A stretch of 57,806 nucleotides of DNA from Magnetococcales bacterium (GTDB taxonomy: Bacteria; Pseudomonadota; Magnetococcia; Magnetococcales; UBA8363). The DNA is taken from positions 1 through 57,806 of the forward strand of contig JACSDG010000012.1 in the NCBI GenBank assembly GCA_015660855.1, read 5' to 3'. The translations under genes were made by a program, and so were the position numbers. The first letter of the stretch is position 1. Each line of letters starts with the position of its first letter. Of the stretch, positions 3,187 through 18,627 are shown piece after piece. Below the pieces are notes generated by a model. The model searched no databases and was not told the DNA's origin. It was given only the letters and a program-made list of their open reading frames with translations.

Positions 3187-3480
3187 TTTAGGTTGGTTGA
3201 AACTATTGCGGGGGTCCGGGGGGGATCATCCCCCCCGGCGGGGTTTGGGGCAGCGCCCCAAGGTTTTGTTTTTGAATTTAAACAAAAAGCTTCATTGCCT
3301 ATGGGGGTGCAAAAAAACAAAATCAAAACCCTGGGGCTGCGCCCCTAGACCCCCCTTGGGGGGCAGGAAAATCAAAATCAAAGTCAAAAGAAAAACCTTG
3401 GAGGCTCTGCCTCCAAACCTCCGCCGGGGGGAGAACCTCCCCCCGGACCCCCGCAATAGTTTCAACCTAAAAAAAGAGGG
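3187..3480. repeat. GC-rich palindromic element with nested hairpins
   Basis: Two inverted arms of about 80 bp (about 3190-3272 and 3394-3468) share the outer sequence AGGTTGAAACTATTGCGGGG, followed by the TCC(G)n tract. Each arm contains two hairpins: 3218-3236 (G7A-TCA-TC7) and TTGGGGC-AGC-GCCCCAA near 3246-3262 on the left; 3426-3444 and TTGGAGGC-type near 3398-3415 on the right. The stems differ between arms by paired changes (for example GA/TC versus AG/CT), so base pairing is kept. The centre holds a further G/C palindrome (about 3331-3365). Single-arm relatives lie at 15,026-15,100 and 28,150-28,260. It resembles a REP/BIME- or MITE-type dispersed repeat. It sits between pepN and ycjF, which converge here, and may act as a bidirectional terminator. 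Confidence 0.8.
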
Positions 3481-3514
3481 GGGAGACTGAACGGTTACGT
3501 TCAAGGGGGGGATG

Positions 3515-4606
3515 TTACGGGGGGGTGGTCTCCCCTCCCGAATCGGTTCGGCCCACAGAAATTTTAATGGTTTTGAACAGTTCCAGGCGCAAACGGTCCA
3601 TGGACGGTTCTCCCCCGGAGTGAAAAGGGACCGCTCGGCAACGATTCATGGCGGCCAAACCGACCCGTGCGGTAAACAAGGCGTTGGCAATCCCTTTTCC
3701 CACCTGGGCCAGGACGATGGAAGCGGTATGTCCCCCTACCGCCTCGGCCACCTTGTCGGCCATCAGATCCGCCGTGCCCGCCATGAACAAACCCACCATG
3801 ACCTCTCTGGCCAAAAACAAACTGGCCGACCCGCCGGGTTTGAGTCCGTAGCAGGTGGCAATGGTACGAATCATTCGCAAGTTTTGCCAAAGAAAAACCA
3901 AACTATCCAGCCAGACGAAAGGGCTGATGGTCGAAGCTATGGCGGTGGTGCTGCCATGTTGAACAATCATCCGGTAGCAACGTCGATCCAAGGTGGCGTA
4001 AACCGTCCTGGACAACAATTCCAACACTTCCCGATCATCGTGATGATCCTGGATCAAATCGTAAAATTCCCGCCAAGCCTTTTGTACCTCGTCTTCCTGG
4101 GTCATCTCCCGACGCAATTGCAAGGCCAGATGCAGCCCCTGGCCATGCGTCCTCTTGGCCCACAACCGTTGGATTGCCGCCTGCACCCCATCAAACCGAC
4201 GCAAACGAACAAACCCTCTCCCCTCGTTCAGAAGAAGCACCCCGGCGGCAATCAAGGTGGTGAGCACCAACACCGCAAACACCGTTCCCAAAGCCCAATG
4301 CAATTGAAACTGTCGCAACAAAAAGCCCAACGTTTCCTCCAACCAGACACCCACCAGCCAAGTCACTGCGCCGAAAACCAGCCAGGTCAAGGATTTTTCT
4401 TGGAACCGACGGCCCCACAATTTCCCTTTTTGTGGTTGAACAAAAGTTAATCCTGATGTCTGGGAAGGGTTCGCTGCGGCATGGAACGGGCGAGGAAGGG
4501 AAGGCAGTTCAACAGGGGCAAGGGGACGGGGAGATTCTTTGTCCTTTAAATTTAAAGGTGCGGCTGGAAGCTCCACGGGAGCCAGCCAGGGTTCAAAGGA
4601 GTTCAT
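3515..4606 (-). CDS. ycjF: YcjF-type inner membrane protein (DUF697 / TIGR01620 family)
   Basis: This 363-residue protein has a proline-rich N-terminus, two adjacent hydrophobic segments (around residues 78-100 'SLTWLVFGAVTWLVGVWLEE' and 108-130 'ALGTVFAVLVLTTLIAAGVL') and a C-terminal DUF697 domain rich in Ala/Gly ('MVGLFMAGTADLMADKVAEA'). That is the layout of E. coli YcjF. The ATG overlaps the stop of the ycjX-like gene by four bases (ATGA), so the two are translationally coupled as in the conserved ycjX-ycjF pair. In enterobacteria the pair belongs to the phage-shock regulon; no PspF or sigma-54 site was recognised here. The molecular function of the family is unknown. Confidence 0.85.
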   Translation of the reverse strand: MNSFEPWLAPVELPAAPLNLKDKESPRPLAPVELPSLPRPFHAAANPSQTSGLTFVQPQKGKLWGRRFQEKSLTWLVFGAVTWLVGVWLEETLGFLLRQFQLHWALGTVFAVLVLTTLIAAGVLLLNEGRGFVRLRRFDGVQAAIQRLWAKRTHGQGLHLALQLRREMTQEDEVQKAWREFYDLIQDHHDDREVLELLSRTVYATLDRRCYRMIVQHGSTTAIASTISPFVWLDSLVFLWQNLRMIRTIATCYGLKPGGSASLFLAREVMVGLFMAGTADLMADKVAEAVGGHTASIVLAQVGKGIANALFTARVGLAAMNRCRAVPFHSGGEPSMDRLRLELFKTIKISVGRTDSGGETTPP

Positions 4607-6039
4607 GTCAATTTGTCTCCCAGGAGAAAATCGAGCACCAGATCCAAACGCAGATGAGGCAGGCGATCATCGGCAAGGTCCGGACGGATGCGTGGTTCAA
4701 ATTCCAAAAAGTTGAAGCGTTCCGATTGCCAAGTTTCGGCTTTGGGAATTTTTTCGGGGATTTCCCCACCAAACAGCAAAACGTCTTCCTGACGCCCCTT
4801 GGGGCGGCCAAGGACAAAGGATAGCCGTCGCCCTTCATGTTCCTTGACCACCGTTTCGGTGGAGACGACCGAGGAAATGGCCATGGTTTCCACGGCGACT
4901 CCGTAGAAAGAGGCCTCGTTGACCGGATCCATGACCATGCGCTTGAGGAGGCGTTCAAGGTTGCTGTGTTGATTGGCGGCGACGTGGTCGGATTTGGTGG
5001 CGGCGAACAGCAACCGGTCGATGCGCGGTTGAAACAGGCGTGAAACGAGGGAAGACCGGCCATAATCAAAATTTTTCAGGATGCTCTTCAATGACCGGCT
5101 CATGTCGTCAAAATGGTTGGGTCCGCGATTTAATCCCTTGAGGACATCCACCAGGACAATCTGTCGGTCAAAATTGGAAAAATGTTGCTGATAGAAGCGG
5201 CGGACCACCAGATCCTTGTAGGATTCAAACCGTTCCGCCATGACCTGTCCCAACGATCCCGGCCTTGCGGATTCGGTGTTGAGTCGGATGGGGCAAAAAG
5301 TCAAAAGCGGGGCATCCCTCAGGTCACCAGGAATCAAAAACCGCCCCGGCTGTAAATAACTCAGACCCACGGGTTGTGCCTTGCAGGCCAGCAAAAAGTC
5401 GGTAAACAACCGGCTGGCCTGCCGCAAAATTCCCTCTTCGGCATTTTGCTTCGGATCCAGGCCGGCAAGATATTCGAGCCAGGGCTGGGCCAGGGCAAGC
5501 CTGGGTTCCATGGTGCACAGGGTAAAAACTTCGTTGGACCATTGGAAAAAATTTTGCCCCAGGAGCGGCAGATCCAGCAACCATTCGCCCGGATAGTCGA
5601 TAATGTCCAGATAAACCGTACTGCTTGCGCGCAGACGGCTGTGCAGCAAACCTGTAGGGCGAAAACGGATGGCCAGTCGAATTTCGCTCAATCCGTCGGT
5701 GGCCCTGGGCCATTGGGATGGGTTTTGCGTCAGGGTTTGGATAAACTGATCGTATCTGAAGGCGGCAATATCCATGTTGGGTTGCAAAACAATTTTGGCC
5801 CCCTGAAACCGACCTTCCGCAACCACCTGGAAAAAGGGCAATCCCCCCAAACGCGCCCCCAGCAACAGTTGATGGATCAGCGAAGTGATAAATATCGTTT
5901 TTCCCGCCTGATTGAGACCTGTGACGGCAAGGCGAATTCTGCGATCCATGGCCAGATAGAGCAGGTTTTCCACATTTTTTCTGGCCTCGGTCACCAGGGT
6001 TCCCAAGGTCATGTTTTTTATTTCGGGCGCGAGCCACAT
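4603..6039 (-). CDS. ycjX: YcjX-family P-loop ATP/GTPase (DUF463)
   Basis: The protein has 478 residues, near the usual family length of about 465-490. The Walker A motif 'GLNQAGKT' is at residues 41-48, in the position typical of the family. 'VYLDIIDYPGEWLLDLPLL' is the characteristic family segment with a Walker B-like Asp and PGE. 'ATKSDHV' looks like a base-specificity motif. It is a stress-associated P-loop protein that works with the membrane protein YcjF, whose gene follows with a four-base overlap. The first ATG at 6039 is used; an alternative in-frame Met lies nine residues in. The gene is divergent from the cNMP-binding gene at 6231, so about 190 bp (6040-6230) hold the promoters for both directions. 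Confidence 0.9.
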   Translation of the reverse strand: MWLAPEIKNMTLGTLVTEARKNVENLLYLAMDRRIRLAVTGLNQAGKTIFITSLIHQLLLGARLGGLPFFQVVAEGRFQGAKIVLQPNMDIAAFRYDQFIQTLTQNPSQWPRATDGLSEIRLAIRFRPTGLLHSRLRASSTVYLDIIDYPGEWLLDLPLLGQNFFQWSNEVFTLCTMEPRLALAQPWLEYLAGLDPKQNAEEGILRQASRLFTDFLLACKAQPVGLSYLQPGRFLIPGDLRDAPLLTFCPIRLNTESARPGSLGQVMAERFESYKDLVVRRFYQQHFSNFDRQIVLVDVLKGLNRGPNHFDDMSRSLKSILKNFDYGRSSLVSRLFQPRIDRLLFAATKSDHVAANQHSNLERLLKRMVMDPVNEASFYGVAVETMAISSVVSTETVVKEHEGRRLSFVLGRPKGRQEDVLLFGGEIPEKIPKAETWQSERFNFLEFEPRIRPDLADDRLPHLRLDLVLDFLLGDKLT

Positions 6040-6230
6040 AATCCGTTTCCATCCTGGAGTTGACGGTCATGCCGCCTTGAAGCAATAACCGCTGAAGGGT
6101 TTCTCATCAAGGGTATCTGGGAAGTTTTTCCATTCACTTCAAGGCAATTAATCGCTAGGATACTCGCATTGTCAGCGACATGGCCAGACGGAATGTCCGA
6201 TGGTTCTCTTCAAGTATTGGGAGTTTTTGT

Positions 6231-6662
6231 ATGGACCGCAAGACCCTGCTGAAAAAGGTTGACGAAGTCGATTTTTTTAATGAGTTTTCCAGCGAAGAAC
6301 GGGCTTGGTTTTGCGACAATAAAATGTTTTGCTCCTATGAGGATGGCAAAAAAATCATCGTCGAGGGGGCGCAGGACAGAACCTTCTACGTAGTGATCGA
6401 TGGCACGGTGACGGTCACCAAAAACTCCGTTCCGAATGAGGTTTTGGCCCATCTGGGACCCGGGGCGGTTTTCGGTGAAATTGCCCATTTTGCCCGCCAG
6501 CAGCGTGCCACCAATGTCCTGGCCCAGGGAAAGGTACTCGTTTTTCGTCTGGAACACGATCTTTTTAAAAAGCTTCCCGCTGATGTCAAACTGAAAATAA
6601 ACCATCAGGCCATGGCTGTCCTGATGCACCGCCTGGAAAGCAAGAAAAATGAACGAAAGTAG
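6231..6662 (+). CDS. Stand-alone cyclic-nucleotide-binding domain protein
   Basis: About 143 residues make up essentially one cNMP-binding (CAP-ED) beta-barrel. The glycine turns ('VVIDGTVTV', 'GPGAVFGEIAHF') and a phosphate-binding cassette 'FGEIAHFARQQRATNV' with its Arg are present, so ligand binding is plausible. No helix-turn-helix or enzymatic domain follows, so it is neither a CRP-type regulator nor an enzyme; it could act as a small adaptor or sensor. An upstream in-frame ATG exists at 6180, but the ATG at 6231 has a Shine-Dalgarno GGGAG seven bases upstream and begins directly with the domain. It lies next to two other genes with cNMP-binding domains (7988 and 10408), suggesting a shared signal. 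Confidence 0.8.
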   Translation: MDRKTLLKKVDEVDFFNEFSSEERAWFCDNKMFCSYEDGKKIIVEGAQDRTFYVVIDGTVTVTKNSVPNEVLAHLGPGAVFGEIAHFARQQRATNVLAQGKVLVFRLEHDLFKKLPADVKLKINHQAMAVLMHRLESKKNERK

Positions 6663-6682: not shown

Positions 6683-6718
6683 AACCTTATGTCAAGGAAA
6701 GACATCAACAGGTTCTTT
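6683..6718. terminator. Possible terminator between convergent genes
   Basis: An imperfect hairpin (AACCT-T-ATGTC / GACAT-CAAC-AGGTT) is followed by CTTTTA on the plus strand. It lies in the 55-bp gap between the stop of the cNMP-binding gene and the stop of the convergent TAXI gene. The stem is interrupted by a bulge, so support is modest. Confidence 0.35.
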
Positions 6719-7689
6719 TAGTAACTGAGGCAATGGGACCGCAAAAATTTTTTACCCTCAGCCTCGACGGCATCAAAATCCACTTGCTTCCACTGCCGCT
6801 GCCCATGGGTGCGCAGCCAGTTTACGTTTTTCCTCAAAACATCTGAAAACCGGGTCAGCCTCTGGCAAATGTCCATGTCCTGGGAATAGTCATAGGATGC
6901 CAGAAGAATTTTGACGGAAACTGTTTTGACGGGTTCTTTTTGCCAAGCGTACGTACCGACCGGGATTTCGGTTGGCACATAAACGGGATCGGCCTGGGTC
7001 AGAATGATGGGGACAAGATGAAAGTCCGCGCTTTGCGGTGCGTTCAGCGTCACGATGGGATCACTGGAAACCGAAGCCACGGCATCAACCTCACCCGAGA
7101 GCAATTTTTCCAACGCTTCGCTCCCCGACGCAGCAACCAGATCGAAGGGAATTTTTTCCTTCAGGGACAGGTTGCCCATGGTCAGAAATGTGCCGGATTT
7201 ATGCGAGTCTACGGCTATTTTACCCTCTTTCAGGTCGGCCAGGGAGTTTAGTTTCTTGCGCGCGACGATCTGCACCCATTCGTCAAACAACGGGTAGTAG
7301 GTTCTGACTTTAACCAAATATTTGCGAATATCACTCCCTGGACGGTCGCTTTGATTGAGACGTTGAGAAATCCAGGAAGGAACGTCTGCTTGGACAAAGG
7401 CTATGTTGATACGGTCGTCGTTGACAATCGACATTAGATTGTCCAATGATCCCAATGAAGATTTTACGACGACATCAAACCCATGCAACTGGCCGAATTT
7501 TTGCAAGTCTTCGCCAAGACGGTAATGGATACCATCCTTGTCACCGGTGACAAGGACAACCTGTCCGTTGCGCAACGCTACGCTTTCCTTGGCAGCGAAA
7601 GAAGGCGGCGTCGGGACGACGAGCAGCAGCACCCACAGCCACAGAAAGCGTATGGCAGGATGTGAATTTACGGCGAAGAGGTTGACCAA
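6718..7689 (-). CDS. TAXI-family periplasmic solute-binding protein
   Basis: This 323-residue protein has a signal peptide (hydrophobic residues 13-31, likely cleaved after 'PSFAA'). 'VVLVTGDKDGIHYRLGEDLQ' matches the start of TAXI/NMT1-like receptors, where the usual signature is TGGxxGxYYxxG; here the GG is replaced by DK. Further family segments are 'INIAFVQADVP' and 'GKIAVDSHKSGTFLTMGNL'. TAXI receptors normally deliver ligand to a TRAP transporter, but no TRAP membrane subunit lies nearby, so it may instead feed a sensor or an orphan system. A 58-codon gene ends 13 bp upstream on the same strand, so the two are probably co-transcribed and divergent from the cNMP-kinase gene. Ligand unknown. 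Confidence 0.8.
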   Translation of the reverse strand: MVNLFAVNSHPAIRFLWLWVLLLVVPTPPSFAAKESVALRNGQVVLVTGDKDGIHYRLGEDLQKFGQLHGFDVVVKSSLGSLDNLMSIVNDDRINIAFVQADVPSWISQRLNQSDRPGSDIRKYLVKVRTYYPLFDEWVQIVARKKLNSLADLKEGKIAVDSHKSGTFLTMGNLSLKEKIPFDLVAASGSEALEKLLSGEVDAVASVSSDPIVTLNAPQSADFHLVPIILTQADPVYVPTEIPVGTYAWQKEPVKTVSVKILLASYDYSQDMDICQRLTRFSDVLRKNVNWLRTHGQRQWKQVDFDAVEAEGKKFLRSHCLSY

Positions 7690-7702: not shown

Positions 7703-7879
7703 CTACGCGGGGGTTGCTTTTGGCTTTTCCGTCGCGGACCATTGGGCCGTAATCTCTGCGATAAACTCCTCGGGCATGATCATGGTGGCGTCTGTCTCTT
7801 CGAGCATGTTCAAGGTGGCGTCCTCCTCTTGCGGCCTGACAGAGTCCGCCTGTTTGGTGTGACTGCCGGATTTTTCCAT
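7703..7879 (-). CDS. Small acidic peptide (58 aa) with two D-A-T motifs
   Basis: A short reading frame begins with ATG at 7879, preceded by GGGGGA five bases upstream, and ends with TAG at 7703-7705, 13 bp before the TAXI gene on the same strand. The peptide is rich in Glu/Asp/Thr and has no hydrophobic or signal segment. It contains two similar blocks, 'EEDATLNM' (Thr22) and 'ETDATMIMPEE' (Thr32). The FHA protein encoded at 13,681 has 'KEDATMMV' at its N-terminus (Thr10), so the motif is shared within the cluster. Such acidic-Thr-hydrophobic segments resemble phospho-acceptor sites read by FHA domains. The inference is that it is a kinase substrate or FHA ligand; it could also be an exported peptide. 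It is not obviously homologous to a named family. Confidence 0.55.
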   Translation of the reverse strand: MEKSGSHTKQADSVRPQEEDATLNMLEETDATMIMPEEFIAEITAQWSATEKPKATPA

Positions 7880-7987
7880 AACTGTCCCCCGTTTGCGTTT
7901 TAATTTTCAACGATGCTCTGGGTACGAACGGCCACTTTGGCGACCGCGAGGCCACTGAATAATTTTAACTGGAAGGTTGCATTTTTT

Positions 7988-9403
7988 GTGACAGAGTCCC
8001 CCTCCTCGGAACCCCTTCTCTCGGAGATGCTAAAGGTTCATCTCCCGTTTGTCACCGGTTTTCTGAAGACTTCGGATGGTTTTTGCAATCTGGAGGCGGA
8101 AGATCTTGATAAAATCGCAGGTATTTGTACGATCGTATCGTTTACGCCGGAACAGTATCTGATGCGCCGGGGAGAAATGGGCGATATCATGTATGTCCTG
8201 ACCGAAGGCCAAGTCCGGGTGGTCATTCCCGACGACTCCGGGGGAGATCCATCGACACTGCTTCTGGGAACGGGCGATATTGTGGGTGAAATGGCCCTGT
8301 TGACCGACGGAAAACGCCGGGCCGATGTCATCGCCTGTACCGATGTTTCCGCCCTGGCCATGCACAAAAAGCATGTGTTTCGCTTGTTGTACCGACATCC
8401 TCCCCTGGCCAGTTTTCTGACGCGTATCCTTGTCAAGCGGATCCAGTCGATCGACGGTTTCAGGCAAATTGGCAAATACCGCCTGTTGGGTGAATTGGGT
8501 TTGGGTTGCACGGCGCGGGTTTATGAGGGTATTCATGTGCACCTTGAACGGCCGGTAGCCATTAAAATGCTCAACCACGCCCTCATGTACGATGATCTGT
8601 TCCGGGAGCGTTTTCAATCCGAGGCCCGCATCATCGCCAAGTTGCAACACCCCAACGTCATCCAGGTTTACGATACCGAACATTCCCATGGCACCCTCTT
8701 TATCGTTATGGAAAAGTTGCTGGGCCGCGATCTGAAAAAACAGCTCCAACAAATCTCCAGATTTTCTCCCGAAAAGGTTGTTCCCATTCTGCGACAGGTT
8801 TGCGAAGCGTTGTTATACGCCCATCAAGAAGGTATTTTACATCGGGATGTCAAACTTGCCAATTGTTTTATGACGGAGGACGGCCAGATCAAACTGATGG
8901 ATTTCGGTCTATCCCGACCTCTTGGCACCCAGGAGAGGATGTCTGTCGAGGGGTCTCCGGATTATTTGGCCCCGGAGGTCATTCGGGGAAAAACCCCGGA
9001 CGAACGGTCAGACATCTACGCCTTGGGTATCATGGCCTTCGCATTGTTGACGGGAATCCTACCCTTTAATGCCAAGAACGTTCGGGAGGTTCTGGTCAAC
9101 CAGATCCAGAAGCCGATTCCCGACATCAGGGAGTTTGTTCCCGCGATTCCGGGAAACCTGATAGATTTTATTCAGGGAACGTTGGTCAAGGATCCGGATC
9201 AACGTCTCAGTGATTGGCCCACCATTTTTTCACTGCTGAATCTGCGCAAGAGGAGTAAGGTGGGGCCTGGAGCAACCCGCGCCACCGGCCATCAATCCAT
9301 CGTATTGACCTGCCCAGAAACATCCGTTCCTGCCCTGCAAGAAGCCCTGCGGGAGTTGTCAACCAAAATCGAAGGGTTGACATGGTCGGATCCAAGGAGT
9401 TGA
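7988..9403 (+). CDS. cNMP-binding domain fused to Ser/Thr protein kinase
   Basis: The N-terminal part (about residues 20-150) is a cyclic-nucleotide-binding domain with phosphate cassette 'GEMALLTDGKRRADV'. A Hanks-type kinase follows from about residue 160: glycine-rich loop 'LGELGLGCTARVYEG', Lys in 'VAIKML', catalytic 'HRDVKLAN' (Asp287), 'DFGLSR' (Asp305) and 'SPDYLAPEV'. All catalytic residues are present. There is no transmembrane segment, so this is a soluble kinase that may be gated by a cyclic nucleotide. I prefer the GTG at 7988, which has GGAAGG upstream; an ATG at 7913 would add 25 residues without a ribosome site. It is followed closely by the HlyD/ABC exporter pair and an FHA protein, its likely partners. 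Numbering is from GTG 7988. Confidence 0.88.
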   Translation: MTESPSSEPLLSEMLKVHLPFVTGFLKTSDGFCNLEAEDLDKIAGICTIVSFTPEQYLMRRGEMGDIMYVLTEGQVRVVIPDDSGGDPSTLLLGTGDIVGEMALLTDGKRRADVIACTDVSALAMHKKHVFRLLYRHPPLASFLTRILVKRIQSIDGFRQIGKYRLLGELGLGCTARVYEGIHVHLERPVAIKMLNHALMYDDLFRERFQSEARIIAKLQHPNVIQVYDTEHSHGTLFIVMEKLLGRDLKKQLQQISRFSPEKVVPILRQVCEALLYAHQEGILHRDVKLANCFMTEDGQIKLMDFGLSRPLGTQERMSVEGSPDYLAPEVIRGKTPDERSDIYALGIMAFALLTGILPFNAKNVREVLVNQIQKPIPDIREFVPAIPGNLIDFIQGTLVKDPDQRLSDWPTIFSLLNLRKRSKVGPGATRATGHQSIVLTCPETSVPALQEALRELSTKIEGLTWSDPRS

Positions 9404-9468
9404 ATCACCCTGATAAAGTCGAAAGGGTGTAATGTTCCAACAAGCAGTGATGAGGAAAGAAGGGGACA

Positions 9469-10347
9469 ATGACCGACAAACAACAAGCAGTCCGAGTTGA
9501 TCACGCTTATCCGGCTCCGGGCAGGCATCCCATCAAAGCGGCCCGGATGCTCTGTTCGGCCCCGTCGTGGGTATTGTCCGGTCCCATCTATCTGGTGGCC
9601 TTGGTCACTCTTGTCGGTCTGGTATTTTCTTTCTGGGCCATCAGGGAGGAACTGGTTGTCGTGCCCCTGATACTGGAACGGGAGTCCACCACGACGGAAG
9701 CCGTCAAAGAGGGAATCGTTTCCAGAATACACATCGAAGAGGGGAAACGCGTTGGCCTTTTGGACAAATTGCTGGATGTCCAGGCCCAGTCCAGCATGCA
9801 AAATTCTGGAGACAAAGCTGTCCAGGCCAAGCCCGACGATGCGGATGAAACCAAAACCATGTTTGGCAGCGGCGTGACCGAAACAGGAATGATGACAGGC
9901 TACAAAAGTACCCATGCAGGCATGGTGACCATGGTTCACGTCAAACTTGGCGGCAATGTTTCACCCGGAATGCCTTTGGTTACGGTCGTCAAGGACGGTG
10001 CCGGTCTGGTGGGGCGCGTCCTGGTGCAAAGCAAGGATATTGGCCGGATCAAACCAGGGCAGGTCGTGCATTTAAAATATTTTGCCTATCCGGACCGGGA
10101 ATATGGCATCCCTGAAGGTACCGTCTCCGATATTTCCACCAAGCCTGATGGACGACTCGGCCAGGAATCTTCCTACAGGGTGCTCGTCACGCTGAAAGAT
10201 GCAGCCGTTGCCAAGCCGGGGGAGAAACCACAGACCCTGGAAACGGGCCTGGAAGGGGTGGCCGAAATCAAAACCGGGGACAAAAGATGGATCGAATTGC
10301 TTTTCTCTCCGGTGGCCAGATTTTTCTCCCAACATGAAAAAAAATAA
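9469..10347 (+). CDS. HlyD-like membrane-fusion (adaptor) protein
   Basis: This 292-residue protein has a single N-terminal membrane anchor (residues about 37-58, 'GPIYLVALVTLVGLVFSFWA'). Two half-lipoyl-like segments follow ('EGIVSRIHIEEGKRVGLLDK' and 'GMVTMVHVKLGGNVSPGMPL') and then a beta-barrel-like part ('GQVVHLKYFAYPDREYGIPE') typical of HlyD/EmrA adaptors. It is much shorter than the usual 400 or more residues because the long coiled-coil hairpin between the lipoyl halves is replaced by a short acidic linker. It should therefore reach less far towards an outer-membrane channel. AAGGGG stands just before the ATG. It precedes the exporter ATPase gene by 60 bp, so the two form a type I-like secretion unit; no TolC homologue is in the window. 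Confidence 0.82.
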   Translation: MTDKQQAVRVDHAYPAPGRHPIKAARMLCSAPSWVLSGPIYLVALVTLVGLVFSFWAIREELVVVPLILERESTTTEAVKEGIVSRIHIEEGKRVGLLDKLLDVQAQSSMQNSGDKAVQAKPDDADETKTMFGSGVTETGMMTGYKSTHAGMVTMVHVKLGGNVSPGMPLVTVVKDGAGLVGRVLVQSKDIGRIKPGQVVHLKYFAYPDREYGIPEGTVSDISTKPDGRLGQESSYRVLVTLKDAAVAKPGEKPQTLETGLEGVAEIKTGDKRWIELLFSPVARFFSQHEKK

Positions 10348-10407
10348 AAAATTTTTCATGATTAAAGTATAGACAAACAGGGTACATCGATACCAGGAGT
10401 CTGATGC

Positions 10408-13400
10408 GTGAAAGCTGCTCAGGAAACCGTTCACCACGTCCTCGACACCCATATCATGTTCAGTCAACTGTCTGACCATGACAAGGAATTTTTACAGACA
10501 CAGTTTGAGCTACGCACGTTCGCCGCAGGCACGATCATTGCCGAACAGGACCAGCCCATGGAAAGTTTTATTTATCTCCAGGATGGCAAGGTTCGATTGA
10601 AGCATACCACTGAAGGCAAACGGGTCAGTTTGGGTGTGCTTGAGCGCAAGGCCAGCCTTGGGGAAACGGCCTTGATCCAGGAGGATCATTGGCACCATCA
10701 GGTAGTAGCTGAAGAATTGACTACAGCCCTGGTGTTGCCGGCGATCGGTGTCCGGCGAATGTTGTCGGGCAACGCGGACATGGCCCAATTATTCAAAAAA
10801 GAGATTGGTTATTTGCTTCTGGCCCAGAGTCTGCGGGACATTTTGGGTGATTTCCCCTGTCGAGCCACGGACTTTGTTGAAATTTTGCACCAGATAGGCG
10901 TGAAGAACATTGCTGCCGGGCATGTTATTTTTGAACAGGGGCAGGCGGATCCGCGCCTGTACCATGTGGAAAAAGGGGAGGTTGTTCTTGTTCGCAGGAC
11001 GGTGCAGGGTTTGGACGTGGTATTGGACCATGTTTATCCCGGTGCCCTGATAGGCGAAGGGGCTGCCCTGTCGGATCGGAACGCGGAAGGTGTCCAGCCC
11101 CACACGGCCAAGGCGGTTGGGGATGTGACCGTCCTGGTCATTCGCCATGCGGAAGTGGAAAAAATTCTCGCCATCAATCCGTCTTTGCGTGAACAGTTGT
11201 GGCAGCGCATCGACTTTTTGCAGGGCAAGGAGCGACAGGAAATCGATTATCGGCTGCATGCGGAAGGCGTCGATCAACGCATCCGCTTGTCCGGCGTCAC
11301 GGAAGCGGAGTTCAAAGCTCAGCAGGGGGAGATAAAAACATTTTCTTGGGTTCGACAGCGCACCGATTCGGACGGTGTGGCCGCTTGTCTGACCATGATC
11401 TGCAACCATTATGGCAAGGGGTTCAAACTGGGGCAGATTGCAGAACTCGGTAATCTGTCTGCGGCGGGCGTGACCCCAGATGCCGTGATTGCGGGGGCGG
11501 AACGTTTGGGGTTTGACGCCAGGGCCTATGCCCTGCGTTTTGATGACATCCCTGGGATGAAGCTTCCTGGTGTCGTCGGTTGGGAAGGGCACAAGTATAT
11601 CGTTTTGTATCGGGTAACCGACAAGGATGTCTATCTGGTTGACCCGGCCGGGGGGCCCATGCAGTTGAGCCGGCAGGAGTTTGAGACCGGGTGGACACAA
11701 GCCGAGGTGCCTGGAGTGATTTCCGAGCCGGACCGGGGAATTTTTATTGCCTTGAACCCAACTGCCAGGTTTGAGCCTGCCGCTCCCCCCCTGAGTTCGA
11801 TTTCCCATTTCATCCGTTATTGCCTGCCCTATAAAAAATTTTTTACTGATGCCCTGACGGCTTCGTTTTTATTCAGCTTGCTTGGCTTGGCGTTTCCTGT
11901 ATTTACGCAGATGATCGTGGATACGGTGGTGGTTCACAAGGATGCCAGCTTTTTAAACCTGATGTTTGCCGGCATGATTTTGATAGTGCTCTTCAAAACG
12001 ATCACCTCGGTATCGCAAAAATGGCTGCTGGCCCACACCGCCGCCCGCGTCAATGTGCGGATGATGTCGGAATTTTATCGCCATCTCCTGAGCCTGCCCA
12101 TTGGTTTTTTCTCGACGCGAAACAGGGGTGAAATTTTTGCCGGGCTTCAGGAAAACCAAAAAGTGAGCCGCCTGGTGGTTGGGGAAGCCCTGATCGGCGT
12201 CTTTAACTTTTTGATGTTGTTTCTCTATTTTTTCATGATGTTGGGTTACAGTGTATCCCTAACTTTGGTTGCCATGTTGTTCCTGGTCTTCCATGTTGGG
12301 ATCACCTTGTATTTTACCCCACGTTTGCGGGCGATTTCCCAGAAGATGTATCTGGCGGACGCCAACTGCCAATCCGACCTGATGGAATCCTTGAACGCCA
12401 TCGAATCCATCAAGGCGACCGCCAACGAATACATGGCGCGGGTCCGCTGGGAGGATGCCCTGACCGATCATGTCAACCTGGGTTTCGAGCGGCAAAAGTT
12501 GGCCCTGATTTCCGATCACCTTGGCCAATGGTTGGCGTTGAGTGCCACGGTGGTTCTCCTTTGGCTGGGTGCCACCCATGTCGTTGATGGCAAAATGACC
12601 GTTGGGGAATTGATGGGGTTTCAAGTGCTGCTGGGAGTGATCCTGGGATCGGTCCTTCACCTCACTGCCCTTTGGAATCGCTCGCAGGATGTGCGTGTCG
12701 CCCTTGCGCGGATCGCCGACGTTTTAAACATCAAGCCGGAACAGGAACCGGTGACCTCCGCCGAAAACATGCCGGCCACACTGCCGAACAGCCTGGAAGG
12801 GCGGATTGTGTTCGACAAGGTTGATTTTAGCCATACCTCCACCTCCGGCAAGGAGTCTTTTGTCCTGAAAGGGTTTGAGTTGACCATTGAACCTGGTCAG
12901 CATGTCGCCCTGGTTGGTGCGGCGGGGTGTGGCAAGAGCACCATCGCCAAAATGATCCTGGGATTCAACATGCCACTCCCCTCCGGTGGCACCTGCACCA
13001 TCGATGGCAGGGATATTCGTGAACTGGATCTGTCTGTCCTGCGCCGCAACATGGGTGCGGTTTTGCAGGATGGTTTTTTGTTTCGTGGCACGGTGGCGGA
13101 AAACATCGCCCTGGGGGATCCCGAACCCAACCTAGCGCAGGTGAGAGAAGCAGCCCGCTTGGCGGGTGCCGATGATTTTATCCAAAAAATGGCCATGGGT
13201 TTTCAAACGCTCATCGGTGAAAAGGGGGTTGGTATTTCTGGAAGTCAACGGCAACGCATTTGTATTGCCCGGGCCGTTTATCGCCGCCCGCGCATCCTGT
13301 TGTTGGATGAGGCGACCAGTGCTTTGGACAGCCAGACCGAAGCCCTGGTGCAAGAAAACATGGCTCGGTTTCTCCGGGGACGAACTTCCATTACCATGAC

Positions 13401-13608
13401 CAGCCGCTTAACGACCATTATCAACTCCGACCTTATTTGTTTCATCAAGGATGGGCGAGTGGCCGAAAGGGGGACCCATCAGGAATTGATCGATCCCGAC
13501 CATTTGCATGAAAAAGGTTATCAAGGTCTTTATTATCGTTTCGCGGCATTGCCATTGGGTTTGCCCCCCCTCAACCTATCCACCTCCGGTCGGCAAGGGG
13601 GAGGGTGA
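10408..13608 (+). CDS. ABC exporter with two cNMP-like domains and a degenerate C39 domain
   Basis: The 1066-residue protein has two cNMP-binding-like domains (about 20-130 and 150-270), a C39 peptidase-like domain (about 305-430), a six-helix ABC membrane domain (about 465-740) and an ATPase domain (about 785-1045). In the C39-like part the catalytic Cys of D-C-G-x-A-C-L is replaced (SDGVAACL), while the His (GHKYIVL) and Asp (VDPA) remain, so it should not cleave leaders and may only bind substrate, as in HlyB. The ATPase has Walker A GAAGCGKS (837-844) and Walker B LLLDEATS, but the signature is ISGSQ and the H-loop His is Ser (TSRLTT). Neither cNMP cassette keeps the usual Arg. GTG at 10408 follows AGGAG by eight bases. 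The cargo is unknown. Confidence 0.9.
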   Translation: MKAAQETVHHVLDTHIMFSQLSDHDKEFLQTQFELRTFAAGTIIAEQDQPMESFIYLQDGKVRLKHTTEGKRVSLGVLERKASLGETALIQEDHWHHQVVAEELTTALVLPAIGVRRMLSGNADMAQLFKKEIGYLLLAQSLRDILGDFPCRATDFVEILHQIGVKNIAAGHVIFEQGQADPRLYHVEKGEVVLVRRTVQGLDVVLDHVYPGALIGEGAALSDRNAEGVQPHTAKAVGDVTVLVIRHAEVEKILAINPSLREQLWQRIDFLQGKERQEIDYRLHAEGVDQRIRLSGVTEAEFKAQQGEIKTFSWVRQRTDSDGVAACLTMICNHYGKGFKLGQIAELGNLSAAGVTPDAVIAGAERLGFDARAYALRFDDIPGMKLPGVVGWEGHKYIVLYRVTDKDVYLVDPAGGPMQLSRQEFETGWTQAEVPGVISEPDRGIFIALNPTARFEPAAPPLSSISHFIRYCLPYKKFFTDALTASFLFSLLGLAFPVFTQMIVDTVVVHKDASFLNLMFAGMILIVLFKTITSVSQKWLLAHTAARVNVRMMSEFYRHLLSLPIGFFSTRNRGEIFAGLQENQKVSRLVVGEALIGVFNFLMLFLYFFMMLGYSVSLTLVAMLFLVFHVGITLYFTPRLRAISQKMYLADANCQSDLMESLNAIESIKATANEYMARVRWEDALTDHVNLGFERQKLALISDHLGQWLALSATVVLLWLGATHVVDGKMTVGELMGFQVLLGVILGSVLHLTALWNRSQDVRVALARIADVLNIKPEQEPVTSAENMPATLPNSLEGRIVFDKVDFSHTSTSGKESFVLKGFELTIEPGQHVALVGAAGCGKSTIAKMILGFNMPLPSGGTCTIDGRDIRELDLSVLRRNMGAVLQDGFLFRGTVAENIALGDPEPNLAQVREAARLAGADDFIQKMAMGFQTLIGEKGVGISGSQRQRICIARAVYRRPRILLLDEATSALDSQTEALVQENMARFLRGRTSITMTSRLTTIINSDLICFIKDGRVAERGTHQELIDPDHLHEKGYQGLYYRFAALPLGLPPLNLSTSGRQGGG

Positions 13609-13680
13609 ACATTGGGTTTGGTAAGTAAGGTTGGGTCGTAGTCACGAAGAGTAGAACACATTTTTTCCAAGGTGAATTTC

Positions 13681-14997
13681 ATGACACAGGGCAAAAAAGA
13701 GGACGCGACGATGATGGTGGGTTGTGATACCCACACGGTCGGGGAAGTGGAAGATGGCATGTTGGATGTCCCTAAAGCCAGGTTGATTTGTCTGGACGAT
13801 TCGCTGCTGGATCCAAAGCAGAAAGGTTTGGAAATTATTTTAAATAGCGGGATCCATACCGTAGGGCGGAAGTCTGACAATACCGACCCCATTTTTTATC
13901 AGGGGATTTCTGGCAAACATGCCCGCATTTATCCCTCCAAGGGGCAGTGGGTTATTGAGGATCTTGGGTCTACGAATGGCATTTGGATCAAGGGGATTCG
14001 GGAAAAACAGGCCATTTTGGTTCCTGGTGATTTTGTCAAGATTGGTTCCATTCCCTTCCAGTATGTGCTTGAAGATCCGACACAAATCCTCCCTTTGGGT
14101 ACCACCATAGATATTGATGATGCAGGCGGTGGCACCATGTATTTGGCGAATGATGAAAAAAAGGCCGACAGAATTGTTGAATTGTTGACCGAGCCCCATG
14201 ACGGAGAAAAAGTTGAAAAACATCCGCACGAAAAAGCGACTCATGCAGGGATGCCTGTCCGTGATATTCCCGCAGGAAAGAAAGCTGCGCAACGAAAGTC
14301 CAGCATATCCATCTTTGGTTTGATTTCACTGATTGTGGTTATTGCCGTCGGCGGATATTGGGTTTTTACCCTACTTGGGGGACCAGGGGGCAACGACGCA
14401 TTCCTGCAACATGAAAAATCCATGCAAAAGGTGATGGACACCTTTGAGGTGGTCAAGGGGGAACCGTCCACCGAGGAATTAGAAAAACAATCGCTGGAAG
14501 TTGAAAAACTGATACAAGCGGTGTCTGCGGACGCAAGTAAATATCCGAATAACCAATCATTAAAGGAGTTACTGGCAAGGCTGCGGTTTTTGCATCTGGA
14601 GCGGCAGTTGCTGTTGTTCGCCAAAGGGGGGAAGGTACAACAGGCGGAACCTGCGATTGCGAGTTTGCTCACCATGGTTGCGACCGATCCAGCCCAATCC
14701 GGGGAACAACCGGGATGGACCGGGGATATGCGCAGTTTGTTGGATCTTGCAAAGGATGTGGTTGCAGCCAAAATGTTTCGCCAGAAATATCCGCAGCCTG
14801 CCAAAGAGGCCTCGGTTCGTCCCAGTCGGGGGGACATGGCGTCTTTGATGGAGGTCAGTCGACGCATTGATGAAAAGAAAAAAGACAACAATATCAAAAT
14901 GCTGTTAAGTTTACGCTTTCCTCTGTTCGGGCGTTTGGTCGCCGAGGTGGATAGTGACGATTTGCCCACTGTCATGCATTGGAAGGATTTTTTATAG
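13681..14997 (+). CDS. FHA-domain transmembrane protein
   Basis: The FHA domain spans about residues 55-130, with all landmark residues ('HTVGRKSDN', 'ISGKHARI', 'DLGSTNG'). It should bind phosphothreonine. One transmembrane helix lies near residues 206-228 ('IFGLISLIVVIAVGGYWVF'), followed by a largely helical region of about 200 residues. The N-terminus carries 'KEDATMMV' (Thr10), a likely phosphorylation site similar to the motifs in the 58-residue peptide at 7703-7879. The ATG at 13681 has AAGGTG six bases upstream; a GTG at 13672 is less likely. The gene follows the exporter and the cNMP kinase, so it probably reports or scaffolds kinase output at the membrane. The function of the C-terminal region is unknown. 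Confidence 0.85.
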   Translation: MTQGKKEDATMMVGCDTHTVGEVEDGMLDVPKARLICLDDSLLDPKQKGLEIILNSGIHTVGRKSDNTDPIFYQGISGKHARIYPSKGQWVIEDLGSTNGIWIKGIREKQAILVPGDFVKIGSIPFQYVLEDPTQILPLGTTIDIDDAGGGTMYLANDEKKADRIVELLTEPHDGEKVEKHPHEKATHAGMPVRDIPAGKKAAQRKSSISIFGLISLIVVIAVGGYWVFTLLGGPGGNDAFLQHEKSMQKVMDTFEVVKGEPSTEELEKQSLEVEKLIQAVSADASKYPNNQSLKELLARLRFLHLERQLLLFAKGGKVQQAEPAIASLLTMVATDPAQSGEQPGWTGDMRSLLDLAKDVVAAKMFRQKYPQPAKEASVRPSRGDMASLMEVSRRIDEKKKDNNIKMLLSLRFPLFGRLVAEVDSDDLPTVMHWKDFL

Positions 14998-15025
14998 TCG
15001 CGGCCTGTTTTTTGATAACTATTGT

Positions 15026-15100
15026 GCCTATGGGGGGTTTGGGGGCGAGAGCACCCAAGGTTTTGGTTTTTGCCCGCAGGGTATTATGTTCAAAGCGCAA
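15026..15100. repeat. Partial copy of the GC-rich palindromic element
   Basis: The segment contains CCTATGGGGGGTTTGGGGGC, GAGAGCACCCAAGG and a T-rich stretch, ending in GCCCGCAGGGTATTATGTTC. This matches one arm of the element at 3187-3480 and, up to the same 3' border, the copy at 28,150-28,260. It ends immediately before the SNF2 gene and contains potential but probably spurious upstream starts for it. Confidence 0.7.
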
Positions 15101-15112
15101 GGCGGGTGTGTT

Positions 15113-17494
15113 ATGAGTCGGTTCAAACTGCCAATGATGGATTCTGACGATGACGGACAACCGAAGACAGGGGGGATTGTTGCTCCAACAAACGAGGTGA
15201 ATTCTGAGCAACCTGACGACAAGGAAAACAGCGTACACTCCGTGCTGCTTGCCCTTTCGGCTGCCTTGGAGTCCGGTATGGAGCATTCCCTCCGGATGGC
15301 GGAGAATGCGTTGCAGTCCTTTCCCACCAATCCTGACCTGCTGAGCTTGGCTTCATTGGCGGCCTTGCTGGAAGGGAAACCCGATGTTTGCATGCGTTAC
15401 CAAAGACGCTTGGAAAGACAGTTTATCCCCAACCAGAGAGACGAACTCATGCGGGCTGTCGCGGCGGCGCAGAAAAAACAATGGGCCATAGCCGTTCAGT
15501 TGGCAAGACGGGGAGGATTGTTCAGCCTGCCTCCGGCGGTGTATTACCCAGGTCTTTCTCGGATTACCCAATGGGTATCGGATTGGATGAGGATTTTGCG
15601 CACGGCAGCGGTTCAGGAAGGAAAGGCCAAGGCAACGCCCCCTCCCCCCAAAAAAAAGAAACCGGCTGTCGGCAAGACGGTTCGCAAAGTCCCTGCCGTC
15701 GCAGCTCAACCTTCCGCGCCGCAACCCCCGAGTTGGGTACCGGAGGTTTCCGGGTTGTCACGACCTGACGCGGATATTCCCATCCAGTTTGTTTGGCCGG
15801 AGGCAGGCGATATAACGCTGCCTTCGAGCATCGGTGGCAGGGAGGAGGTAGCTTGGTTTCACCTGCGGGGGGAATTGACACACTTGAGCTTGCTGCAAGG
15901 TTTTGATGAGCTTCTTTGCCTGACTTATCTACAACATGTGGATACCTATTGGTACCAGGTGGAGACGGTGCGCAAGGTGCTCCGGCAATTTCGCGGGCGT
16001 GTATTGTTGGCGGATGAGGTGGGTCTGGGAAAGACCATCGAGGCGGGGATGGTACTCAAGGAATATCTCCTTCGGGGGATGGTTGACCGGGTTCTCATCC
16101 TGACTCCGGCCTCCCTGGTGGGGCAATGGCAGGAAGAGATGGAAAGCAAGTTTGGGCTTTCCTTCGATACCAGTTACGATGCCCTCCTGCGTGAGGATCC
16201 GCAGGCATTTTGGCAACGGAAAAGGATTATAGCCTCCATTGCGGCAGCCCGTCGTGACCCCCATTTTTCCATCCTGGCAGAGCAAAATTATGATTTGATC
16301 ATTGTCGATGAAGCCCACCATTTAAAAAACCGCAACACACTGAACTGGAAGCTGGTCGATGCCCTGAAAAAACGCTTTCTGATCCTGTTATCCGCAACCC
16401 CGGTCCAAAACAGCCTGGTGGAGCTCTATAACCTGCTGACCCTTTTGAAACCCGGTATTTTTAAAACGGAAAAAGAATTCCGCAACGCCTACATGACGCC
16501 ACGTCAGCCGCGAATACCCGCCAACCGACAGCAATTGCGGGATCTGATGCGGGAGGTCATGATTCGCAACACCCGCTCCCTGGTGGACGTGCGCCTGCCA
16601 CCGCGCCATGCCGTGACCATTCGCCTGAAGGCTGAAGCCGAAGAACGTGCCTGTTACGACACATTGACCCATCTGATCGGTGCGGTGCACACACAGGAGG
16701 AAAACCAACAGCGTCTGGCATTGCACCACCTTTTGACCGCCGCCGGATCTTCGCCTGCCGCCGGGGCCTCTGTCGTGGAACGTTTTGCGGCCAAACGTCA
16801 GGGGGATGAACCATGGCGGCAACTGCATTCCCGGTATGTCAACCTGTCCGGTGGCATCAAGGAAAAGGCTTTATTGGATCTGTTGCAGCGCAACCCTGCC
16901 GAAAAAAAAATGGTGTTTATTCATCATCGGGAAAGCATGGAGAGACTGGATCAGGTGTTACGGGAGATGGGAACTGGTTTTGTCCGTTTTGACGGCAGCA
17001 TGAGCGGTCCGGCCAAGGATGCCGCCATTGCCTGTTTTCGGGATCAGGTTGCGGTGCTTTTATGCAGCGAATCGGGCGGCGAGGGACGCAATATCCAGTT
17101 TTGCAACACCATGATCAATTTTGACTTGCCGTGGAACCCCATGGTCATCGAGCAGCGGATCGGTCGCATTCACCGCATCGGTCAGACACGGGAGGTCTTC
17201 ATCTTCAACCTGGTGGTCCAGGATACGGTGGAAGATCATGTGCTCAAAATACTGGATGAAAAAATCAACATGTTTGAACTTGTGGTCGGGGAGGTGGATG
17301 CCATTTTGGGAGAAATGGACGACCAACGGGATTTTTCCGAAATGGTTTTTTCCGCCTGGGTGGAGACTACGGAACAACAAAGAACTTCCGCTTTCGTTGA
17401 ACTGGGTGAACGGATGGTGGCTGCCAAAGTTCGGTATGAAGACGTCAAAGCCCTGGACTCACATCTTTTTGGAACTGAATTTGAAACCGGATGA
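15113..17494 (+). CDS. SNF2/RapA-type DEAD/H helicase
   Basis: The protein has 793 residues. After a poorly conserved N-terminal region of about 240 residues with a Lys/Pro linker (about 165-200), a two-lobe SNF2 ATPase follows: Walker A 'DEVGLGKT' (301-308), 'VDEAHHL' (398-404), 'LSATPVQNSL', then the C-terminal lobe with 'MVFIHHRESMERL', 'SGGEGRNIQFCNTMINFDLP' and 'QRIGRIHRIGQ'. It should be a double-stranded-DNA or nucleoprotein translocase. Upstream in-frame starts at 14954 and 15086 lie in the previous gene or in a repeat, so ATG 15113 (AAGGCGG upstream) is chosen. Its stop overlaps the start of the next gene (ATGA), so the two proteins are made together. No nuclease or methylase is present, and it does not match DISARM. 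Confidence 0.9.
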   Translation: MSRFKLPMMDSDDDGQPKTGGIVAPTNEVNSEQPDDKENSVHSVLLALSAALESGMEHSLRMAENALQSFPTNPDLLSLASLAALLEGKPDVCMRYQRRLERQFIPNQRDELMRAVAAAQKKQWAIAVQLARRGGLFSLPPAVYYPGLSRITQWVSDWMRILRTAAVQEGKAKATPPPPKKKKPAVGKTVRKVPAVAAQPSAPQPPSWVPEVSGLSRPDADIPIQFVWPEAGDITLPSSIGGREEVAWFHLRGELTHLSLLQGFDELLCLTYLQHVDTYWYQVETVRKVLRQFRGRVLLADEVGLGKTIEAGMVLKEYLLRGMVDRVLILTPASLVGQWQEEMESKFGLSFDTSYDALLREDPQAFWQRKRIIASIAAARRDPHFSILAEQNYDLIIVDEAHHLKNRNTLNWKLVDALKKRFLILLSATPVQNSLVELYNLLTLLKPGIFKTEKEFRNAYMTPRQPRIPANRQQLRDLMREVMIRNTRSLVDVRLPPRHAVTIRLKAEAEERACYDTLTHLIGAVHTQEENQQRLALHHLLTAAGSSPAAGASVVERFAAKRQGDEPWRQLHSRYVNLSGGIKEKALLDLLQRNPAEKKMVFIHHRESMERLDQVLREMGTGFVRFDGSMSGPAKDAAIACFRDQVAVLLCSESGGEGRNIQFCNTMINFDLPWNPMVIEQRIGRIHRIGQTREVFIFNLVVQDTVEDHVLKILDEKINMFELVVGEVDAILGEMDDQRDFSEMVFSAWVETTEQQRTSAFVELGERMVAAKVRYEDVKALDSHLFGTEFETG

Positions 17495-18627
17495 GTGAGC
17501 GATTACGCAATTTTGTTGCCGATCTTCTGGAGCATTCGGGGGCGGTCATCGAGCGCATTGAACCCGACGGACTGGAGGTGCTTTCTCCCGCCGACGTGCG
17601 TGCCGCCCTGTCGCTGCCGGAACTGGCTAGGCTTGGATTTTCACCCGAGTTGCCTTCGGGTGCCCAACGGGTTGGTTTGGAATCGGACTGGCTGGAGCGT
17701 TTCCATGGGCTGATGGGGGAACATGGAAACTGGGCGCGTTTATCCTGGGAATCCGGTCAGTCTTTATTTTCCAATCCCGAAAAAATATTGGAGCATGGTC
17801 TGGTCCTGAACAATGCAGTTTTTCGTTTGGAATCGGTTCAACCGGCCTGGACCCGTTATTTGCTCCTGGTGTTTCGTTTTACCGCCATGTCCGAAGAAAA
17901 ACGCGAGGGGGTGATTCGCGTCGGTTTCAACATGGCCAATGGGGCCACACTGGATGGTTTTCTGGATTCTTTGTGGTCCGAACTGTTGCTGGATGAACCG
18001 TGGCGTCGAGATGCAAGTGGTATTTCTGCGGATGTGGTGCTACCGGAAGTGTGGGAGGTTGAAAAAGTTTTCCAGGTGGTTCGACGCGCGTTACCGTTGC
18101 GCGTTGCAGAACGGTTGGAACGGTTCATTCAAGGGCTGAAGCGGCGGCAGAATGGCGATATAGACCGGTTGCACGGTTATTTTTCCGACATGCAGAAGGA
18201 AATTGTGGAGCGCATGGCCAAAGAGGCGAAAGGGGAGGCCGCCGACGCGGAAAAATTCACTCAGCGTTTGGCCTCCATAGAACGTGAATATCACAGCAAG
18301 GTCAACGATCTGCGTCAAAAATATGCTTTGCGTGTGGATACACGTTTTGTTCAGGGGATGATCCTTGAAATGCCGGTTTACCGTTTGCACCTGCTCATCA
18401 AAAGGAAGAAGGGTGAACGTCATTTTCATCTGGACTGGAATCCGGTGGTTCGCAAGTTGGAGACCCCCCCGTGCGAATACAGTTTTACCTGGACCACGGC
18501 GCGCGTCGTCTGTGACGAGGCCTTGCATCTGGTCAGTGCCGAGGCCCACGCGGGATGTCGGGCTTGCGGCAAATCTTTCTGTCGTGCCTGCCATGGGGAA
18601 AAATGCCCGAAGTGCGGTCAGGCCTGA
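17491..18627 (+). CDS. Unknown protein with C-terminal zinc ribbon, coupled to SNF2 helicase
   Basis: The 378-residue protein is not recognised as a named family. Its start overlaps the helicase stop (ATGA), which argues for equimolar production and physical partnership. The C-terminus has paired cysteines, 'CRACGKSFCRACHGEKCPKC', a treble-clef or zinc-ribbon-like module. The central part has a charged, probably coiled-coil segment ('RRQNGDIDRLHGYFSDMQKE' to 'VNDLRQKYALRVDTRF'), followed by a beta-rich region ('VYRLHLLIKRKKGERHFHLD'). A role as specificity or loading factor for the SNF2 motor is an inference from coupling. It is intact, with no frameshift seen. Confidence 0.75.
   Translation: MSERLRNFVADLLEHSGAVIERIEPDGLEVLSPADVRAALSLPELARLGFSPELPSGAQRVGLESDWLERFHGLMGEHGNWARLSWESGQSLFSNPEKILEHGLVLNNAVFRLESVQPAWTRYLLLVFRFTAMSEEKREGVIRVGFNMANGATLDGFLDSLWSELLLDEPWRRDASGISADVVLPEVWEVEKVFQVVRRALPLRVAERLERFIQGLKRRQNGDIDRLHGYFSDMQKEIVERMAKEAKGEAADAEKFTQRLASIEREYHSKVNDLRQKYALRVDTRFVQGMILEMPVYRLHLLIKRKKGERHFHLDWNPVVRKLETPPCEYSFTWTTARVVCDEALHLVSAEAHAGCRACGKSFCRACHGEKCPKCGQA

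Follow-up and report, generated by a model that had tools for sequence, protein, structure and literature searches.

A candidate kinase-FHA phosphothreonine switch and a motif-bearing small protein encoded beside the kinase in a Magnetococcales genome

The window analysed here, a stretch of 57,806 nucleotides, is one contig of the 4.5 Mb genome of a Magnetococcales bacterium. A Hanks-type kinase with a cNMP-binding domain and an ABC exporter lie between a small gene and the gene of an FHA protein, in the order given by the initial annotation. The D-A-T motif that it described as shared is likewise present at all three places: EEDATLNM and ETDATMIM in the small gene and KEDATMMV at the start of the FHA protein. 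The small gene is divergent from the kinase, on the opposite strand, a point absent from that annotation. The features are as follows.

6180-6662, plus strand: stand-alone cNMP-binding protein, adjoining the module, membership uncertain
6718-7689, minus strand: TAXI-type periplasmic solute-binding protein (NMT1_3), co-occurring with the kinase
7703-7879, minus strand: small gene, an open reading frame of 58 codons starting with ATG; acidic product (pI 4.4) with two DAT motifs
7784-7786, minus strand: codon of Thr32 (ETDATMIM), invariant in all three orthologues
7814-7816, minus strand: codon of Thr22 (EEDATLNM), a site found in the window genome only
8027-9403, plus strand: cNMP-binding domain and Hanks Ser/Thr kinase, catalytic residues intact
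9469-10347, plus strand: HlyD-like adaptor without the coiled-coil hairpin of about 150 residues of its relatives
10408-13608, plus strand: ABC exporter with two N-terminal cNMP-binding domains and a C39-like domain
13681-14997, plus strand: FHA protein, in which a tail and a linker, both predicted to be disordered, flank the FHA domain; a single membrane helix and a helical C-terminal domain follow
13708-13710, plus strand: codon of Thr10 (KEDATMMV), invariant in the FHA family
13858-14046, plus strand: FHA domain with conserved GR, S..H and S-T/S-N-G pocket residues
14134-14136, plus strand: codon of Thr152 (GGGTMYLAND), a second Thr motif right after the FHA domain

The listed open reading frame of the kinase starts at position 7913, which is probably too early; 8027 is the likelier start and matches the start position of relatives. 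The kinase, predicted to be soluble, matches Pkinase of Pfam with an E-value of 6e-56, and its VAIK Lys, HRD, DFG and related kinase residues are invariant in four orthologues. Its CNB domain matches PF00027 (E-value 8.8e-18), with the phosphate-binding-cassette residues G125, E126, R135 and A137 invariant in the four orthologues. Having the Gly-Glu and Arg of the cassette, it qualifies by sequence as a predicted cyclic-nucleotide-binding regulator. Orthologues of the kinase occur in just three other genomes of the order, G037, G044 and G028, at 42-66% identity; the one in G044 lies at a contig end, and the region upstream of it is unreadable. Ten Hanks kinases pass the cut-off in the window genome, where 11 matches to class III cyclases and a single PP2C phosphatase were also found.

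The FHA protein likely starts with the ATG at 13681, giving MTQGKKEDATMMV with Thr10. Nine members of its family, the window protein included, were found in eight genomes of the order and aligned over their length. The N-terminal Thr is invariant in all nine, while the rest of the tail is poorly conserved: the tails read KEDATMMV, DDDATLMV, GDGATIMV, GNEATIVM, KEDQTVMM, EEEMTMME, EENETLLI, AEDLTIMD and EEELTMMG. In a distant tenth member, which belongs to a different family of the phylum, the tail reads TEDKTIVA. A simple rule, namely a Thr followed by two of V/I/L/M and preceded by at least two acidic residues in five positions, describes 10 of the 10 tails, with a shuffle probability of 0.003-0.08 for each. 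In the window protein, position -2 is acidic and +2 and +3 are hydrophobic, in agreement with the DgcB-type motif, and +1 is hydrophobic instead of Ser. Three relatives, in G009, G012 and G016, have no hydrophobic residue at +3.

The Thr152 motif was missed by the initial annotation. A comparable site, of the type Thr-[MILV]-hydrophobic, stands shortly after the FHA domain in all ten proteins. The rule is looser here and the shuffle probability is 0.03-0.38 each, so that the case for this second site depends on its co-location with the domain.

The residues of the phosphothreonine pocket (GR, S..H, N) are invariant in all nine aligned members. Using the nine-sequence alignment, AlphaFold predicts a confident FHA domain, a helical C-terminal domain and a probable membrane helix at residues 210-231. 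The pLDDT falls below 50 at residues 1-26 and 137-212, and both Thr sites lie inside these segments. The top fold matches in Foldseek are GarA and OdhI, with FHA-tail complexes of Bdellovibrio DgcB also among the matches listed. In a profile search of the PDB the leading matches are EmbR and the ABC exporter Rv1747, GarA and OdhI being close behind. These top structural and profile matches are proteins whose FHA domains read phosphothreonine. Our literature search found no paper combining Magnetococcales with FHA domains.

The ATG of the small gene has GGGGGA just 5' of it. A direct search with the small protein gave no orthologue at a convincing E-value; the orthologues were located through synteny with the kinase. 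In both G037 and G028 a small frame stands divergent from the orthologous kinase, reading MTSNRKST...EEGTDATLVMPKDIMDEI... in G037 and MPDNSSVEK...VDTDQTMVLRIDLDDDLF... in G028, which brings the known orthologues to three with that of the window. In the alignment their identity to the window protein is 31% and 21%, respectively, and Met1, T29, D30 and T32 are the sole residues invariant across the three. The G037 and G028 proteins carry one site each and the window protein two. The initial annotation had proposed to look for the small gene and its Thr residues in relatives; with the frame kept beside the kinase in these genomes, and T29, D30 and T32 of its motif invariant, the frame is conserved, contrary to the first outcome that was to refute the proposal. 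A profile built from the three proteins has no further convincing match across 48 genomes; the one ranked next (E-value 0.0035) is a DAT-repeat stretch of an FHA-GspE protein of G037.

A single motif in one short protein is unremarkable, with a shuffle P of 0.05-0.09 each. What takes the motif beyond chance is its recurrence, in the small frame of two further genomes and in all ten tails of the FHA family. The frame could instead be untranslated, or a leader of the TAXI gene, its likeness to the FHA tails being coincidental: it is short, acidic and low in overall identity, and in two genomes the TAXI gene follows it closely. This we regard as highly improbable, given the plausible Shine-Dalgarno sequences and a motif that is invariant despite synonymous differences between the window and G037 in the T, D and T codons. 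Moreover, in G028 the TAXI gene is inverted and the small gene still stays beside the kinase.

The TAXI gene itself follows the small gene, and orthologues of TAXI and kinase co-occur; no transporter subunits were seen beside the TAXI gene. TAXI relatives in Desulfacinum, Desulfobacterales and Ca. Venteria were considered as members of the same module and set aside, a scan of public genomes showing no kinase or small gene near them.

How common the motif is beside FHA domains was measured across the order. Since the rule was derived from eleven proteins seen first, evidence for enrichment is limited to the 64 other FHA proteins of the order, which were held out. Within 80 residues of the FHA domain these contain 24 acidic-x-Thr-hydrophobic sites, against a shuffle mean of 3.5 and a maximum of 11 in 2000 shuffles; the rate near the domain is about 7-fold over background. 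The Ser version of the rule occurs once near FHA domains, below background. Related proteins inflate the unweighted excess, and equal weight for the 14 held-out families leaves a smaller one (3.33 versus 0.78, not reached in 1000 shuffles). The excess is carried by three small families.

Two broader descriptions of the motif were discarded. In the two largest clusters held out, the majority of FHA proteins lack it, so it is no universal FHA feature. As a general kinase feature it fares no better: a site matching the rule occurs in one of seven kinase frames scanned in the window genome.

An FHA-GspE protein of the window genome holds the motif in fourfold repetition, as PEDEATVVR or close variants of it; its counterpart in G037 has nine DAT sites. 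The gene of this FHA-GspE ATPase immediately follows that of another Hanks kinase, at a locus resembling those for type II secretion or pili (L185, G000:C29, positions 9365-13641). A cyclase-FHA protein of the window genome carries EEEELTIMGG between its two domains. The gene of this fusion adjoins a PP2C gene, the only one found in the genome (L184, G000:C129, positions 3203-5055).

Of 12 FHA loci taken from outside the order, five encode a pair of FHA domains with a DKTM-type site between them, in most cases DKTMII; EKTMVI occurs in a sixth. The linker site KTM[IVL][IL] (mostly DKTMII) is found at L161, L165, L166, L168, L169 and L171, most of which have two FHA domains, and is another candidate for a self-binding switch.

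From the sequences and predicted structures we consider it reasonably probable that the locus encodes a kinase-FHA phosphothreonine switch, in which the tail of the FHA protein binds in cis to its own domain, the microprotein acts as a ligand in trans and the kinase is under cyclic-nucleotide control. An intact kinase, a membrane-anchored FHA protein with a preserved pocket and Thr motifs, and a divergent microprotein sharing the motif all point to this reading. A cyclic nucleotide, and perhaps also a periplasmic ligand sensed by the TAXI protein, would switch the kinase on. The kinase would then phosphorylate the Thr in the FHA tail, and the phosphorylated tail would fold back on, or bridge to, an FHA domain. 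The microprotein would also be phosphorylated by the kinase and, in this form, compete for or cross-link the same FHA pocket in trans. The binding of the FHA protein at the inner membrane would change as a result, its partner most likely being the neighbouring transport machinery. All steps from phosphorylation onward, cyclic-nucleotide gating included, are ones that we infer. The initial annotation had suggested that the three Thr sites are kinase targets bound by the FHA domain, linking a cyclic nucleotide signal to secretion. The phosphosites that it proposed gain from the conservation, the predicted disorder, the intact pocket and kinase, and the order-wide enrichment; the coupling to secretion through the exporter is less well supported.

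The role of the microprotein is put forward more tentatively. It may be a dedicated, encoded FHA ligand, a competitor or cross-linker under control of the kinase that resets or clusters the switch. The motif, present in these bacteria next to the FHA domains of transport, pilus and cyclase proteins, would then have its stand-alone form in the microprotein. Its partner could be another FHA protein of the genome instead. Another and, in our view, unlikely arrangement has a switch in cis only: the tail Thr binds its own domain, like that of GarA or DgcB, and the same kinase has the microprotein as an unrelated substrate or decoy, whose motif is dictated by the kinase and not by the FHA domain. 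Kinase consensus and FHA consensus are indeed inseparable by sequence alone, and the FHA family commonly has the motif where the microprotein is missing. However, FHA domains of several families have an excess of the motif beside them, for which the preference of a single kinase is an unlikely source. The microprotein sites also have a hydrophobic residue at +3, a position read by FHA domains (PMC6733907). Points against the cis-and-trans switch are the hydrophobic residue at +1, the three relatives that lack one at +3, the small number of known orthologues of the small gene (three) and the motif-bearing FHA proteins in genomes that have no orthologue of the window kinase, where other kinases must serve.

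If the proposed cis-and-trans switch is correct, FHA switches gain a free, bivalent inhibitor or linker encoded beside the kinase. The signature acidic-x-Thr-hydrophobic near an FHA domain, with Thr and not Ser, would predict kinase targets in Gram-negative bacteria. Testable links would follow in Magnetococcales between cyclic nucleotides, Hanks kinases and parts of type I and type II secretion or pili.

Each step of the proposed switch has a precedent, in GarA/OdhI, DgcB, Rv2623-Rv1747, PpkA-TssL-Fha and PknG-GarA. In GarA and OdhI of actinobacteria, served by PknG or PknB, the phosphoacceptor Thr lies in an unstructured N-terminal tail and is bound by the protein's own FHA domain (PMC5448819). 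The window protein has its conserved Thr in an N-terminal tail predicted to be disordered as well; unlike them, it is membrane-anchored, with a helical C-terminal domain and a second Thr motif, and the system gives no sign of 2-oxoglutarate dehydrogenase control. The Gram-negative precedent is DgcB of Bdellovibrio, an FHA-GGDEF protein whose FHA domain binds a tail Thr with Glu at -2, Ser at +1 and hydrophobic residues at +2/+3 (PMC6733907). The acidic -2 and hydrophobic +2/+3 positions are common to both motifs, whereas the Ser preferred at +1 in GarA, OdhI and DgcB (PMC6733907) is a hydrophobic residue in the window motif. The output of DgcB is c-di-GMP synthesis, and the part of PMC6733907 consulted describes neither a linked kinase gene nor a microprotein.

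In M. tuberculosis, the transporter Rv1747 is down-regulated through its FHA domain, to which a phosphothreonine motif of Rv2623 binds in trans (PMC5549992, PMC3908365). As with Rv1747, PknF and Rv2623, a kinase, an FHA domain and an ABC exporter form one unit in the window. The FHA domains of Rv1747 are fused to the exporter, whereas in the window the FHA protein is a membrane protein of its own, and the proposed partner in trans has 58 residues and is not a universal stress protein. Phosphorylation-driven condensates of Rv1747 (PMC9312465) are a precedent for another, quite unlikely reading, in which a bivalent microprotein and an FHA protein with two sites join at the membrane into multivalent assemblies that depend on phosphorylation, instead of a one-to-one on/off switch. 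The numbers of motifs would suit it, with two in the microprotein, two per FHA protein and nine in the FHA-GspE protein of G037; the single site of the G037 and G028 microproteins argues against it.

In type VI secretion, the membrane component TssL is phosphorylated at an N-terminal Thr in a PpkA-dependent manner, and Fha reads phospho-TssL and activates secretion (PMC3953482). The proposed switch similarly combines a Hanks kinase, an N-terminal Thr and an FHA reader; here, however, the FHA protein itself bears the motif and the membrane helix, and no T6SS genes are recognised at the locus, none being among the Pfam matches for ten genes at 4.6-18.6 kb. Finally, the solute-binding protein GlnH controls the PknG-GarA switch in the GlnH-GlnX-PknG-GarA system (PMC6069109). 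The window likewise has a gene for a periplasmic solute-binding protein linked to a kinase, but the TAXI family differs from GlnH and no membrane relay resembling GlnX was seen at the locus.

Within about 8 kb there are four cNMP-binding modules: two in the exporter, one in the kinase and one in the protein at 6180-6662. The exporter matches PF03412, PF00664 and PF00005 of Pfam, as a HlyB-type exporter with a C39-like domain does; its best NCBIfam match, TIGR01846, is below the cut-off of that model. In the C39-like domain the position of the catalytic Cys is a Gly (TDSDGVAAC). The coiled-coil hairpin of type I adaptors docks to a TolC-like channel. Three relatives of the HlyD-like adaptor (48-56% identity) have this hairpin and the window protein retains a short loop, without the hairpin reaching a TolC-like channel that characterizes a type I adaptor. 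Given this adaptor, the exporter may be degenerate or repurposed. Control of secretion by a cyclic nucleotide through the window exporter seems plausible and is the weakest step of the proposal. The sequence DETKTMFG in the loop of the adaptor resembles the motif and was not counted, as its place beyond the membrane helix should put it in the periplasm.

In G037 and on the short contig of G044, the kinase and FHA genes stand side by side, the exporter is missing, and a secretin-like gene comes next; the pair there sits by a predicted type II secretion/pilus locus. In other genomes the FHA gene follows an ABC gene and the window-type kinase is absent. These pairings, with a secretin-like gene or with an ABC gene, tie the FHA protein to transport machinery in general. 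In several genomes (loci L047, L052 and L054) the ABC and FHA genes are followed by large genes resembling a TolC-type channel and two further proteins of 650-690 residues, and together they look like a larger conserved export locus. Downstream in the window, a SNF2-type helicase gene and a partner (14954-18627) both match DrmD models in pieces, and are possibly a split DISARM-like or BREX-like helicase.
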